Shown here in pieces: positions 1 through 5,159 of a stretch of DNA of 64,000 bases. The position numbers were made by a program, and so were the translations under genes. The notes below the pieces were generated by a model that saw only the letters and a list, made by a program, of their open reading frames with translations, was not told the origin of the DNA and searched no databases. Origin of the DNA: Gemmatimonadota bacterium (GTDB taxonomy: Bacteria; Gemmatimonadota; Gemmatimonadetes; Longimicrobiales; Gaopeijiaceae); the NCBI GenBank assembly GCA_022825135.1, contig JAJDYN010000036.1, forward strand, positions 1-64,000. Direction: 5' to 3'. The first letter of the stretch is position 1. Each line of letters opens with the position of its first letter.

Positions 1-158
1 CTTCCGAGCCGGGGTACACGTCCCCCACAGGTGCTCTGTGGCACTGGGTCACTCAGGTTACTCCCGGCCTGGTCGCCTGTCGCTGCTTGAACGTCTATGC
101 GATCTACTGCAAAGCGTTCAAGAATGGTACAGGGTCGCTCCGTGGCGCGGCCAAGGAA

Positions 159-305
159 CGCGGATCGGCATCGGCGCTCCGCCGACCGTGGCACAACCGC
201 AAGCGCGCCAGCGACTTGCGAAACCGGAGGCGTGTACATCGCAGGCGCGATTTCGTTGTACACGCACCCCCAAACCGCCATGTACACTCGCGGATCGGCA
301 TCGGC
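159..305. repeat. 17-bp direct repeat, two copies
   Basis: The 17-mer CGCGGATCGGCATCGGC occurs at 159-175 and again at 289-305, 130 bp apart. The second copy overlaps the left arm of the hairpin at 291-317. Nothing in 1-336 looks like a gene: the open frames there lack family similarity and ribosome sites. The repeats probably belong to the end of the mobile element that carries the recombinase at 897. Confidence 0.6.
233..286. repeat. three TGTACA sites at 24-bp spacing
   Basis: The palindrome TGTACA occurs at 233-238, 257-262 and 281-286, so each copy starts exactly 24 bp after the last. Flanking bases make them GTGTACAT, TTGTACAC and ATGTACAC. The regular spacing of slightly over two helical turns fits binding sites for a protein that sits repeatedly on one face of the DNA. 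The small helix-turn-helix protein at 337-648 or the recombinase at 897 are candidate binders; this is inference. Confidence 0.5.
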
Positions 306-317
306 CATGCCGATCCG
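291..317. terminator. perfect 11-bp hairpin after the HTH gene
   Basis: Arms CGGATCGGCAT (291-301) and ATGCCGATCCG (307-317) are exact reverse complements around a 5-nt loop. It lies 20 bp past the stop of the minus-strand HTH gene, so it may end that transcript, although no T-run follows on either strand. It could instead be a recombination or protein-binding site. Confidence 0.45.
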
Positions 318-336
318 GGTTTGAAGAACGGTACCG

Positions 337-648
337 CTACCGCCGCCTCGGCTTTTGCTTCCGAATGCCACGCGCATGCAGCGTATTGGAGACGGTCTGA
401 TCCGAAAGCGCAAACCGCTTCGCAACCTCCGACATGCTGCCGCTCTGCTCGTAGGCGGCACAGATCGCGTCACGCTGCAACTCGATCAACTCGGCCCTTG
501 TGGGAAAACCGCCCTCGCGCATCGCGATCCTTCCAACTTGGTAGGACGATACGCCGAGATCGCGAGCGATGTGCCCGAACGTCTCGCCGTCCCAGGCGCG
601 TGCGATAATCTCACTGCGCACCGTGTCGGGGATCGTGCGCGATTGCAT
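337..648 (-). CDS. small double helix-turn-helix DNA-binding protein
   Basis: This 103-residue protein has two helix-turn-helix-like segments. The first is at about residues 20-43, with IARDLGVSSYQVGRI typical of resolvase/transposase-type HTH. The second is at about 58-94, with VAKRFALSDQTVSNTL. It ends in a very basic tail (RGIRKQKPRRR). The start at 648 is chosen because GGGGAGG lies a few bases upstream; the open frame continues to 906 but without a ribosome site. It faces away from the recombinase at 897, with 248 bp between them. A regulator or directionality factor of the mobile element is the likeliest role. That role is inferred from position, and no specific family was recognised. 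Confidence 0.7.
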   Translation of the reverse strand: MQSRTIPDTVRSEIIARAWDGETFGHIARDLGVSSYQVGRIAMREGGFPTRAELIELQRDAICAAYEQSGSMSEVAKRFALSDQTVSNTLHARGIRKQKPRRR

Positions 649-896
649 GGGAACCTCCCCGTGTTTCGATGCCATTCGGGATTCCGCCACGATATTGGCG
701 CGCGTTCCGCGACCTGTAAAGCGCGCATTCCGGCCTGCTCGGCCCATTTCATGTCGGCCTCGCTCGCCGACGTCCGCGACCAAGCGCCCGCCAACAGCGA
801 TCCGGCCCGCGCAGGCAGCGACCGGCTGGCGGAGATGGCTTGTCTCCGCGAAGTTTCGTTCGCGCAGATCGTGCGGTCCATCACGCGAGGAATCGA

Positions 897-2060
897 ATGA
901 TGGCACGTACGAAACGAAGTCGGCGCAGCTACAGCGCCGGCGAACGGGGCCGGAACCGGGTCCGGGTGTTTCCCGATCCGAAAACCGGCATGCTCCAGAT
1001 AGAGTGGCGGAAGAACGGGCGCAGGCTGAGTCGGTCGCTGAAGCACCGCGACTGGGCTCGCGCGAAGCGGGAGGCCGACGAGGCCGCCGCGGGCTTCGCG
1101 GGACCAGAACTGAACGGCCAGAAGGAGGCCGAGCCCGAGCCGCTCACGCTGGAGCGGCTTTTTGACATCTACGGCGAAGAGGTGACGCCCTCCAAGGCCA
1201 AGAGGACGAGGAAGCACGACCGGGTCGCGATGCGGATGTTCCTCGATTTCCTCGGACCGCACCGAAGGCCTGAGACACTCTCCCAGCGCGACTGGGACCG
1301 GTTCATCCGGGAACGGCGAATGGGCAAGGTAGGCCCGAGCGGGAAGCCCGTGTCGAACCGGATGGTCGAATGCGACCTGAGGTTTCTGATCGCGGTCCTC
1401 AACTGGGCTGCCAGATCCCGGGACGAGCGGGGCCGCCTGCTTCTCGACAGGAACCCGTTGAAAGGCCTGAAGATGCCCACGGAGAAGAACCCGCTCCGGG
1501 TCGTGCTTTCCGACGAGGAGTACCGGGCGCTTCTGAAGGTGTCCCGCGAGGTGGACTGGCGGTTCCACGTCGCGCTCGTGCTCGCGCACGAAACGGGGCA
1601 CCGCATCGGCGCGATCCGCAAGCTGCGGTGGTCTGACATCGACATCGAGGGCAGAACCATCCGGTGGCGCGCGGAGCACGAGAAGACCGGGTACGAGCAC
1701 ACCACGCCGCTGACCGACGAGGCGATCGCCGTCCTCGACGAGGCGCGGGAGCGGAACCCCGCGAGAGGCAACGCTCCGGTGCTGACCTCAACGCAGGATC
1801 CCTCGGTGTTCGTCAGGCGCTGGGTGCTCGGTTACAGCTGGCAGCAGGCCGAAAGGCTCGCCGGTCTGGAACTCAAGCGCGGCAGAGGCTGGCACTCGCT
1901 GCGCCGCAAGTTCGCCTCCGACCTCATGGACCTTCCCCTCAAGGTCTTGTGCCAGCTTGGCGGCTGGAAGAACGCGAACACGGTCCTCCGCTGCTACCAG
2001 CAGGCCGACGAGGGACAACTCAGGAAGGCTTTGGAAAGCCGCCGGGGGGTTCAGGCCTGA
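897..2060 (+). CDS. tyrosine recombinase / phage-type integrase
   Basis: The 387-residue protein is a site-specific tyrosine recombinase that cuts and rejoins DNA at attachment sites. A basic N-terminal arm and a SAM-like core-binding domain (about 82-190) precede the catalytic domain. The catalytic set is visible: Arg236 in HRIGAI, Lys263, His333 and Arg336 in HSLRR, Trp357 in GGW, and the nucleophile Tyr367 in VLRCYQ. It is therefore probably active. GAGG lies 6 bp before the ATG at 897, and a second ATG follows at 900. The gene ends about 100 bp before a HmuY-like gene without a proper start, suggesting that the element's right attachment site lies between them. No other phage or plasmid genes are seen, so the rest of the element is presumably left of the window. 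Confidence 0.9.
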   Translation: MMARTKRSRRSYSAGERGRNRVRVFPDPKTGMLQIEWRKNGRRLSRSLKHRDWARAKREADEAAAGFAGPELNGQKEAEPEPLTLERLFDIYGEEVTPSKAKRTRKHDRVAMRMFLDFLGPHRRPETLSQRDWDRFIRERRMGKVGPSGKPVSNRMVECDLRFLIAVLNWAARSRDERGRLLLDRNPLKGLKMPTEKNPLRVVLSDEEYRALLKVSREVDWRFHVALVLAHETGHRIGAIRKLRWSDIDIEGRTIRWRAEHEKTGYEHTTPLTDEAIAVLDEARERNPARGNAPVLTSTQDPSVFVRRWVLGYSWQQAERLAGLELKRGRGWHSLRRKFASDLMDLPLKVLCQLGGWKNANTVLRCYQQADEGQLRKALESRRGVQA

Positions 2061-2166
2061 GAATCCCATTAGCGGGAGTCGAACAGCGGGAATCTGGCAT
2101 GGCAAACTTCTAAGCTCATCTGTTACAACGAGATACCAACCTGATGGCGCCCGCCTGAACAGCGGC
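2061..2166. other. probable element/chromosome junction
   Basis: This stretch holds no gene. It runs from the recombinase stop to the first usable GTG of the HmuY-like frame. The HmuY frame is open through the whole stretch but has no ATG, no ribosome site and no signal peptide. This is what an attachment-site crossover inside the 5' part of that gene would leave. Read on the minus strand, GTTCGACTCCCGC resembles a tRNA T-loop, but the flanks do not pair. Confidence 0.4.
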
Positions 2167-2970
2167 GTGTCGGGTCCGGGATCGGTGTCGGGCTACAATC
2201 TCGGCACCAACGCCGGCGCCTCCGGTGACCAGGTCGCGGCGCTGGCTCCCGAGGATGGGGAGACCGTGTTCCAGGCTGTGACGGAGGCCGACATACCGGC
2301 GTCCTCCGCCTTCATCGAGGATGGCCTGGCGCCGGATCCGGGCTCTACCTGGTTCCGCTTCGATCCGCAGGCGGGGACACTGGTGGCGGATCCGCGGGCG
2401 GCATGGAAGGTGCAGGAGAGTTCGGGAAGAGGTCACGCGCTCTTTCGCGTCGTGGAGTTGCGCATGGAGGGGCAGCGGCCCCTGGGGCTGAACATCGAAT
2501 ACCGGCGCCAGGAGCCGGGCGGCACCCTGGGGGAGGCAGGCATCGCGACCGCCGATCTCACGCGCGGTCCGGCGTACGTCGGTTTTGCGGGAGCCGGGCG
2601 GCCGCAGGCGGGAAGCTGCGACTGGGACATCGGGGTCTCGCCCGAGTTCGGCGTGCTGGTGAACGGGGATTGCGGGGCCGGCACCTTTCCCCTCGACGCC
2701 GCGCAGGACTTTACCACGCAGGCACGCGCGGACGACGCCCCCGAGTACGCGGATTTCCTGGCCGTGATCGCGGGCGCCTTTCCGGCCAGCGTCACCGACG
2801 CCGGCGGGATCTTCTGGTACGGCATCCAGAACGGCAACCGCCTCTGGCCGACCTACAACGTCTTCCTGGTGATGGTGGACCAGGACGTCTACAAGGTGCA
2901 GGTCCACGACTACTACAGCGCCACCGGAGCATCGGGCTTTCCGTCCGTGCGGTTCCAGCGCCTCCGGTGA
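2167..2970 (+). CDS. HmuY-family heme-binding protein, apparently missing its 5' end
   Basis: The last 200 residues match the HmuY fold family, outer-surface lipoproteins that pick up heme and pass it to a TonB-dependent receptor. Recognisable parts are DWDIGVSPEFGVLVNGD in the middle and RLWPTYNVFLVMVDQDVYK then VQVHDYY near the end, the usual C-terminal beta-strands. A lipoprotein signal sequence should precede this, but there is none. The frame runs back without a stop into the recombinase gene, with no ATG or ribosome site. The GTG at 2167 is only the first possible start. The gene was probably decapitated by the insertion to its left. Its stop overlaps the start of the receptor gene (GTGA), so the two were one operon. 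Heme as ligand is inferred from the family. Confidence 0.65.
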   Translation: MSGPGSVSGYNLGTNAGASGDQVAALAPEDGETVFQAVTEADIPASSAFIEDGLAPDPGSTWFRFDPQAGTLVADPRAAWKVQESSGRGHALFRVVELRMEGQRPLGLNIEYRRQEPGGTLGEAGIATADLTRGPAYVGFAGAGRPQAGSCDWDIGVSPEFGVLVNGDCGAGTFPLDAAQDFTTQARADDAPEYADFLAVIAGAFPASVTDAGGIFWYGIQNGNRLWPTYNVFLVMVDQDVYKVQVHDYYSATGASGFPSVRFQRLR

Positions 2971-5159
2971 ACCTCGCCGCCCGGACGGGGCTGATCGCCG
3001 CCCTCGGTGTTGCGGGCGCTCTGTCCCCGGTCGCCCTTCGTGCCTTCCCGCCGGCGCCGCAGGAGACGGCGGCTCCGGGGGAGGTGGTCGACCGGGCGTC
3101 GGGCGCCCCCATCGCCGGGGCAAGTCTGCGGTGGACGCCCCCAGGCGCCCTGCGCTCCCCCGCCGAGGAGGGCGAGGGCCGGGCGCCCGTGTCCAGCAAC
3201 TCGCGCGGCGCCTTCGGGTTGCCCGAATCCTGGGGCCCCGGGGGCACGATCGAGGTGGCGGCCCTCGGATACGTCGCCCGCATCCTGACCTGGCGGGAGG
3301 CCGCGGCGGCGGAATGGCGGCTTGAGCTTGCGCGCGACCCGCTCGCGCTGGACGAGGTAGTGGTAACGGCCAGCGTGCGCGCGCGGCGCCGCTCGGAGAT
3401 CGCGCTGCCGGTGGAGAGCATCGAGGCGGCGGAGATCATCGCGGCGGGAGCAGCCTCCGCGGACCGTCTGCTCGAGGAGCTGCCGGGCGTGCAGGTGACC
3501 GGGAACGCGCCCACCGGGTCGAACCTCCTGATCCGCGGCATCGGCGGCGCGCGCGTGCTCGTCCTGCTGGACGGGCAGCCGGTCACCGGAACCCTCATCG
3601 AGAACCGCGACCTGAGCCGCATGTCGCTCGCCGGCAGCGACCGGGTCGAGATCGTGAAGGGTCCCCTCTCCTCGCTGTACGGTTCCGACGCCCTGGGCGG
3701 GGTGGTCAACGTCATCACCCGGCTGCCCGCCTCGGGCTTCCGTCTGGACGCACGCGCGCTTTCGGGCGGCGCGGGCCGGCAGGAGGCGGAGGCGACGGCG
3801 AGCGGAGGCGGCCGGCTTCAGTACAGCATCACCGCGGGATGGCGCCAGGAGAACCAGGTGCCGGGACTCGTCAGCGGCGGCCAGGACGCCTTCGCGCGCA
3901 TTTGGGACGGGCGCTCCCGCCTCCGCTTCGCCGTAACCGACGACTGGGAGCTGCGGGCCGGGTTCACCTTCCTGCGCGAGCGCCAGCGATGGCCGGTCGG
4001 GGGCGGATTCTCGGGCTTCAATGACAACCGCGGCTTCTCGGGCTGGCTCGAGACCCGGCGCCGCGCGGGGTCCGGGGAATGGAGCGCCACCGTCTTCGCG
4101 CAGGACTACGAGCATCTCTACCGGAGCGCCCGCGGGGACGCACCGATCGCTGGAGATCGCTCCAACGCCCAGTGGGAGAGGCTGGCCAAGGCGACCGCGG
4201 GCTACTCCGGCACCCGGGGCGACCACGACTTCGACGTGGGCATCGAGGGGGCGGCGCGCTCCATCGAGTCGCCAGACAAGCTGGTCGAGGAGCGGGCGGC
4301 GGACGACCAGATCGCCTTCTTCGTGCAGGATGCCTGGCGGCTGGGCGCCACGGTGGTGAGCGGCGGGGCACGCCTGACCCGCAACAGCCGCTGGGGATCG
4401 AACCTGGCGCCTTCCCTCGGGCTGACGCGTTCCTTCGCCGAGAACCTCCGACTGCGCACCGCCGTCGCCCAGGGGTTCCGCGCGCCGTCGTTCAAGGAAC
4501 TCGGCTGGAGGTACGTGAACCTGGCCGCGGGGGTCACCGTCCAGGGGCATCCCGACCTGCAGCCCGAGCGCTCCTGGAGCGTGTCGGCCGGCGCGGAGTG
4601 GCGACCGGGGGAGCGCCTGCTCGTCGACGCCGAGGTCTATTCCAACCGCATCCGCAACCTCGTGGAGCTAGGGTTCATCGGCAACGCGCCCAGCGGCCTG
4701 CTCGTCTACTCGCCGCGCAACCTGGCGGACGCGGTCACCCAGGGCTTCGAGCTCACGCTGCACGCGCTGCTCGGGGACGGTGAGTTCTCCGTCGGCTACG
4801 CATACCTCGACGCGCACACCGGAGCGGGCGGGAGGCTGGACCGGCGCGCCAGACACTCCGCGCGCGCTCGCGCCACCTGGACCGTGGCAGAGCTCTCGGG
4901 ACTCCGCCTGGACGGGACCGTCCACTTCACCGGAAGCGCGCCCATGCTCCTGACCCAACCCGACGGAACCACGGTTCCCCTCGGGACCCAGGAACGATTC
5001 ACCGCGGTCGACCTGCAGGCGGCGCTGCCCGTCTCAGGCAACCTCGAGCTGCTCGCCGGCGTCGACAACCTTCTCGACGCCCGTCCCGCGGGATGGCCGG
5101 GCATCATCGAACGCCGGTTCCGGATGAGCATCCGCCTCCGGGAGCTGTTCGCGGGATAG
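2967..5159 (+). CDS. TonB-dependent outer-membrane receptor (HmuR-like)
   Basis: The 730-residue protein has a signal sequence (about 1-22), a carboxypeptidase-regulatory-like domain (about 28-120, VDRASGAPIAGASLRW), a plug domain starting near ALDEVVVTASV and a 22-strand barrel. The plug shows the usual LLIRGIGGARVLVLLDGQ and VEIVKGPLSSLYGSDALGG. The barrel ends in IRLRELF. It imports a bound ligand using energy from TonB. The GTG start at 2967 overlaps the HmuY-like stop by 4 bp, so it depends on translation of that gene. Heme or another iron-porphyrin is the best guess because of that neighbour. If the 5' end of the partner gene is lost, this receptor may have lost its promoter too. Confidence 0.85.
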   Translation: MNLAARTGLIAALGVAGALSPVALRAFPPAPQETAAPGEVVDRASGAPIAGASLRWTPPGALRSPAEEGEGRAPVSSNSRGAFGLPESWGPGGTIEVAALGYVARILTWREAAAAEWRLELARDPLALDEVVVTASVRARRRSEIALPVESIEAAEIIAAGAASADRLLEELPGVQVTGNAPTGSNLLIRGIGGARVLVLLDGQPVTGTLIENRDLSRMSLAGSDRVEIVKGPLSSLYGSDALGGVVNVITRLPASGFRLDARALSGGAGRQEAEATASGGGRLQYSITAGWRQENQVPGLVSGGQDAFARIWDGRSRLRFAVTDDWELRAGFTFLRERQRWPVGGGFSGFNDNRGFSGWLETRRRAGSGEWSATVFAQDYEHLYRSARGDAPIAGDRSNAQWERLAKATAGYSGTRGDHDFDVGIEGAARSIESPDKLVEERAADDQIAFFVQDAWRLGATVVSGGARLTRNSRWGSNLAPSLGLTRSFAENLRLRTAVAQGFRAPSFKELGWRYVNLAAGVTVQGHPDLQPERSWSVSAGAEWRPGERLLVDAEVYSNRIRNLVELGFIGNAPSGLLVYSPRNLADAVTQGFELTLHALLGDGEFSVGYAYLDAHTGAGGRLDRRARHSARARATWTVAELSGLRLDGTVHFTGSAPMLLTQPDGTTVPLGTQERFTAVDLQAALPVSGNLELLAGVDNLLDARPAGWPGIIERRFRMSIRLRELFAG

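Follow-up and report, generated by a model that had tools for sequence, protein, structure and literature searches.

Why does the HmuY-type reading frame at the left end of this DNA lack its beginning, and what became of the TonB-dependent receptor gene that follows it? The window, i.e., the whole stretch of 64,000 nucleotides that was analyzed, starts at base 1 of contig C20 in the genome of an uncultured bacterium (G000; 3.54 Mb in 41 contigs, completeness 93%). A sequence-only reading had proposed that a mobile element was inserted within the gene and left its 5' end on the far side of the element. The features on which the argument depends are as follows.

1 to 2151, plus strand: right part of the inserted element, running off the contig start; its left part is read as C21:1-4109
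337 to 648, minus strand: gene for a small helix-turn-helix protein (Sigma70_r4, 30.5 bits; HTH_23, 26.7 bits; both above cut-off)
900 to 2060, plus strand: tyrosine recombinase (integrase) gene, an uninterrupted frame of 386 amino acids (PF00589, 65.8 bits against a cut-off of 27.1, scanned from an upstream TTG at 840)
2061 to 2151, plus strand: right end of the element, aligning by eye with the right ends of sister elements (L066-L069)
2152 to 2164, plus strand: attR core CGCCTGAACAGCG, 13 bp, identical at C21:4111-4123 on the minus strand
2152 to 2970, plus strand: 3' remnant of an HmuY-type lipoprotein gene (PF14064), about 272 of 363 codons, the whole gene being present in relatives
2967 to 5159, plus strand: TonB-dependent receptor gene with Plug (PF07715) and barrel (PF00593) domains, scanned as frame 2403-5156

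We compared the HmuY-type frame with the genes of relatives. Homology to congeners starts at 2152, 91 bp beyond the end of the recombinase gene (2060). The sequence-only reading had placed the HmuY-like frame at 2061-2970; its recognition of an HmuY-type gene fragment was correct, whereas 2061-2151 proved to be the right end of the element. The frame has no start of its own, as had also been stated: no ATG, GTG or TTG lies in frame between the recombinase stop and the homology, and the first in-frame starts past the homology start are GTGs at 2167 and 2185, within the conserved domain. Upstream, too, the frame is open, and it includes a TTG at 1957 that falls within the recombinase gene. PF14064 scored 24.1 bits on the window fragment alone, below the cut-off of 27, and 53.7 bits, above it, on an uninterrupted relative (L059). 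The family profile matched the solved P. gingivalis HmuY (3h8t; E 2.3e-12) at profile positions 34-100, which lie mostly in the portion severed from the window fragment. HmuY structures were the top structural matches (E 8e-7) of a protein model of L061, a low-confidence model (mean pLDDT 60.8; TM-score by query length 0.30) that was used as support only.

The search of 98 genomes found an HmuY-type protein in 20, including G000 and some genomes with short partial matches only. All 17 copies in relatives that matched the whole or nearly the whole fragment have an in-frame N-terminal extension (7 short partial matches were left out), and the proteins of genus members are approximately 90 residues longer than the window fragment; i.e., the same short gene without an insertion was found in none of the copies read. 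The signal peptide described as missing is indeed absent from the window fragment, and a lipoprotein-type signal, identified by eye, is present in relatives and on C21 (...APLSACES), where the cysteine presumably belongs to a lipid-attachment motif. Two hmuY-type copies occur in genome G006 (L009 and L022); they are 75 and 63% identical to the fragment in the window.

The missing N-terminus was sought in the assembly and was found in the same genome at C21:4110-4860, on the minus strand, with 95% identity to the upstream DNA of the nearest relative, G004 (L003). The C21 match to L003 ends at the junction, and the other 39 matches listed are of 50 bases or fewer. C21 runs, in order, through the upstream neighbour genes, the first 92 hmuY codons, and the core; element DNA fills the remaining 4.1 kb of the contig. 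When the halves were joined in a script, they formed an open frame of 364 positions with one stop at the end; this frame has the same length as the G004 gene and is identical to it at 350 positions. The insertion point falls in the codons for R-L-N-S. A repeat at the far junction had been predicted for 2061-2160; it is present, but it spans only 13-14 bp at 2152-2164/5. Base 2165 (G) is a 14th base that also matches at attL and lies outside the core of the sister elements considered below; judged by the G003 sister, which shows a 13-bp rather than a 14-bp core, this base is common to hmuY and the element end by chance.

We searched 2040-2400 against the genome and found no second copy, although the 13-14-bp repeat itself is too short for that search. 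When another hmuY gene was sought in G000, the 3' part was matched once, and the 5' part had a single strong match. Positions 1-840 of the window gave two weak partial matches elsewhere in the genome and nothing more, and C21:1-141 is an exact repeat that also stands at the start of C24. C20 and C21 are unjoined in the assembly, the middle of the element being unassembled; we infer that they carry the two ends of one element.

An empty site in related genomes had been suggested as a check, and six congeners were found to be uninterrupted. In five of them (L059-L063), the end of the C21 homology overlaps the start of the window homology by 14 bp at the same place, which is the overlap expected of an insertion; the overlap is 18 bp in the congener L065 and 15 bp in L064, from the same family. 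The joined flanks cross the junction in one alignment in all six congeners, with a longest gap of 5 columns, and gap columns within 100 bp of the junction number 0 in five congeners and 7 in L065. On both sides the flanks are collinear with those of relatives, for up to 8 kb each. The core at the empty site is identical to CGCCTGAACAGCG in G004 only; compared with the core of the DUF222 genes introduced below, it has 2 mismatches in L060-L063 and 4 in L065. An integrative element is recognized by att cores repeated directly at its two ends and by relatives in which the site is empty; both features were found.

Four congeners (G002, G003, G005 and G010) have the collinear flanks but lack the hmuY-receptor block between them, and the 98-genome search gave no hmuY match elsewhere in these genomes. 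Therefore, the hmuY-receptor pair seems dispensable, its loss being tolerated in the genus. At L086, L087, L088 and L089, the block is absent with nearly identical break points.

The recombinase gene had been called intact, which its uninterrupted frame bears out. Its translation contains, as read by eye, R (GHRIG), K, HSLR, W and Y, which we take to be the active-site pattern; the best NCBIfam match, NF040815, scored 44.6 bits, far short of the 220 required. Positions 329-2164 are 88% identical to a sister element on contig C41 of G001, and the helix-turn-helix gene lies inside this common stretch. Two direct AGCGGGARTC repeats within 2061-2151 may bind the recombinase. Apart from the recombinase, no phage genes were recognized by Pfam in the few element proteins scanned. 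Stretches of the recombinase family occur at 15 further places in G000, with 69-82% identity over the aligned part; 8 of these sit at the end of a contig, some could be fragments of a single gene, and the shortest does not reach significance by itself (E 0.034); three more distant matches (32-41%) were not counted. The C21-type left end has 13 matches in G000, C21 included, several of them partial. Each of 11 genomes of the genus has 3 to 50 recombinase matches when fragments and distant recombinases are included.

Two side observations concern this family. C21 and C13 (L043:1-970, L091:1-979) have in common an inner block (88-89% identical) and the left end, with no match between the two, which suggests modular cargo in these elements. 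Recombinase genes of the family also stand in tandem or facing pairs and in triplets (G010:C118:12487-15849, G001:C42:240421-242776, G002:C390:627-3139).

The closest relatives of the window recombinase show where such elements are found. The three closest recombinases have 90, 88 and 88% identity, the last two being identical to each other, and the right ends of their elements run into DUF222 genes at CG[C/T]CGGAACAGCG; the one DUF222 gene tested scored 60.9 bits with PF02720. The sisters in G003, G010 and G001 split DUF222 genes at CGCCGGAACAGCG, with the G001 right junction reading CGTCGGAACAGCG; those in G003 and G010 are identical over the junction and were counted once. The core of the G003 sister, CGCCGGAACAGCG, equals the hmuY core CGCCTGAACAGCG at 12 of 13 bases. 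The remaining DUF222 halves, joined to a C21-like left end, were found in all three genomes, and a check of L104 showed a DUF222 frame that crosses the site without interruption. In a recombinase tree, the window recombinase fell inside the sister clade (99/95 for its four rows).

The G003 sister is complete on one contig (C37), with its ends 18.4 kb apart (L135:641-19102). The C21 left end is 85% identical to this element over 151 bp, and the right end with the recombinase is 89% identical over 1.3 kb; the rest of the assembled element sequence gave no match to it. Pfam matches were obtained for 6 of its 9 scanned proteins (LPD38, DnaJ, Hsp70, kinase-AAA, TerB and relaxase), the relaxase-like gene adjoining the recombinase (PF03432, 26.5 bits; cut-off 24.6). 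A defence system was considered for this sister, but only one of the 9 proteins was hit, via its kinase and AAA parts, and the element was not so read.

These junctions allow other origins of the split to be weighed. Recombinase repeats may have caused unrelated pieces to be joined in the assembly, hmuY really being whole; the 8 family stretches at contig ends and the 141-bp repeat common to C21 and C24 would be in keeping with such an artefact. However, the break falls on precisely the same 13-14 bp in two separate contigs, each of these bears an element end known from other genomes, a chimera is unlikely to recreate a core that differs from the sister core at one base, and no second hmuY copy was found in G000; we consider an artefact highly improbable. 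Because related recombinases are many in each genome and C20 and C21 are unjoined, an inversion or translocation between two element copies, instead of one insertion alone, might have parted the halves. This is quite unlikely: both halves stop where an element terminus with the same core begins, which simple insertion predicts, both flanks are collinear with relatives, and in G003 a single contig holds a complete element bounded in this way. The short direct repeat flanking the insert could also be taken for a 14-bp target duplication made by a cut-and-paste (DDE) transposon. With a tyrosine recombinase gene ending 91 bp from the junction, both ends common to sisters, and a target core far from random, we regard a transposon of this kind as extremely improbable.

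We estimate a probability of about 0.9 that an integrative element with its own tyrosine recombinase was inserted site-specifically into the HmuY-type gene, presumably as a secondary site, and split it; the proposal of an insertion within the gene is upheld by the 5' half on C21, the repeat at both junctions and the empty site. We infer that the element's own recombinase performed the insertion. The element would have entered hmuY by site-specific recombination at the R-L-N-S codons, leaving the 5' 92 codons and the signal peptide on the C21 side and the 3' ~270 codons and the TonB receptor on the window side (C20).

We then considered why hmuY served as the target. Both strands of G000 (3.54 Mb) contain 39 sites within one mismatch of the DUF222 core, including the two hmuY junctions, and a control pattern gave 21 sites; by arithmetic from the 39 sites, the chance that a random insertion point fits the core is approximately 5 in a million. 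The element probably took hmuY as a secondary attachment site, because the sister recombinases sit in DUF222 genes at a nearly identical core. The sole exact DUF222-type core in G000 lies on C25 in an rseP-type protease gene (identified by eye), which is read as uninterrupted. G000 has 10 DUF222 matches, none of them on C25, and 7 of the 10 span the site; two of these 7 have one mismatch (C6 and C11), and the other five are outside the list of sites with at most one mismatch. The pattern fits an element that turns to a secondary site for want of its usual one, although the genome is 93% complete and the usual target is that of the nearest sisters only.

Target choice varies within the family: two copies in G000 abut tRNA-Leu(CAA) and tRNA-Val(TAC) genes (L048:7376-7460 and L050:7981-8055), and the fourth-closest recombinase among the matches listed by score (84%) is not at this site, its element running into another recombinase gene. 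A second recurrent break point in DUF222 genes, CTTCTTCCACATGCGC (query 201-216), was observed at L091:2868-2883, L053:874-889 and other places; it adjoins other recombinases and left ends of the family.

Whether the remnant is still in use was assessed from codon changes. Relative to G004, dN/dS was 0.106 for the remnant, 0.205 for the part of the receptor compared, and 0.484 for the 5' part, the last value resting on 5 synonymous and 7 nonsynonymous changes only; it would fit some relaxation too. In the remnant, 8 synonymous and 2 nonsynonymous codon changes were placed on this branch and 7 and 4 on the G004 branch, with 11 unplaced; in the 5' part, the counts were 2 and 2 on this branch and 2 and 1 on the G004 branch, with 4 unplaced. 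Polarization of the receptor changes was not relied on, as 48 of the 54 differing codons were unplaced and the outgroups unaligned. Selection figures for the 5' part against L063, and for copies whose N-terminal starts had been placed at a fixed distance, were likewise set aside. By these comparisons, there is no clear sign of decay in either half. The insertion looks recent, because both halves are still open frames, and we favour this over a frame still in use.

The short frame may alternatively be a functional gene whose transcription continues from the recombinase gene and whose translation begins at an internal GTG. The remnant is open, its dN/dS against G004 is low, synonymous changes outnumber nonsynonymous ones on this branch, and no terminator pattern was found in between. 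A recent insertion gives the same conserved pattern, however, and the frame has lost its signal peptide and most of the HmuY-like part (profile positions 34-100); none of the 17 copies read in relatives has the short form. We therefore find a functional short gene very unlikely.

With site-specific insertion as the preferred reading, we considered its effect on expression. The likely start of the receptor gene overlaps the hmuY stop by 4 bases, and because all 7 relatives examined retain this ATGA/GTGA stop/start overlap, translation of hmuY and the receptor is probably coupled. The sequence-only reading had also proposed that the receptor gene was severed from its promoter. No promoter or terminator patterns were found in 1500-3400, a scan of little weight given the GC-rich genome, so transcription from the recombinase gene may still reach the receptor. 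The lipoprotein was very likely lost, since its signal peptide was lost. Receptor output was probably reduced, because the receptor gene overlaps hmuY by 4 bases and the hmuY promoter would now be far away. Both halves are open and both cores identical, so that exact excision might restore hmuY and cells might switch heme uptake on and off in turn, in the manner of the prophages excised from hlb or comK; such a reversible switch is unlikely here.

Several known systems resemble this one in part. phiSa3 in hlb (PMC6597384) is a gene-splitting prophage with reversible excision. As in that case, a coding gene is split and exact excision would restore it, whereas the hmuY case is known from sequence alone. 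Salmonella genomic island 1 (SGI1; PMC2297512) is a mobilizable element that has a site-specific integrase and turns to a second chromosomal site if its usual one is absent, much as is proposed for hmuY; however, the second site of SGI1 is intergenic and was found in laboratory transfers, whereas the hmuY site is intragenic and deduced from genome comparison. DUF222/HNH proteins are encoded by REP13E12 repeats. phiRv1 is located in such a repeat of Mycobacterium tuberculosis (PMC9317374). phiRv1 uses a serine recombinase, whereas the hmuY element has a tyrosine recombinase. Our literature search found nothing on DUF222 genes as attB of integrases or tyrosine recombinases or on integrases of BD2-11 sponge bacteria, and nothing evidently relevant on HmuY in Gemmatimonad bacteria.

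The event is ordinary in kind and unusually completely documented: it is a natural off-target landing of a site-specific element in a working gene, for which the sisters elsewhere, the core, the junctions and the empty site are all visible. Because every one of the 11 genus genomes has several to many recombinase matches, insertions of this type may contribute to gene loss in these bacteria and to breaks in their assemblies.
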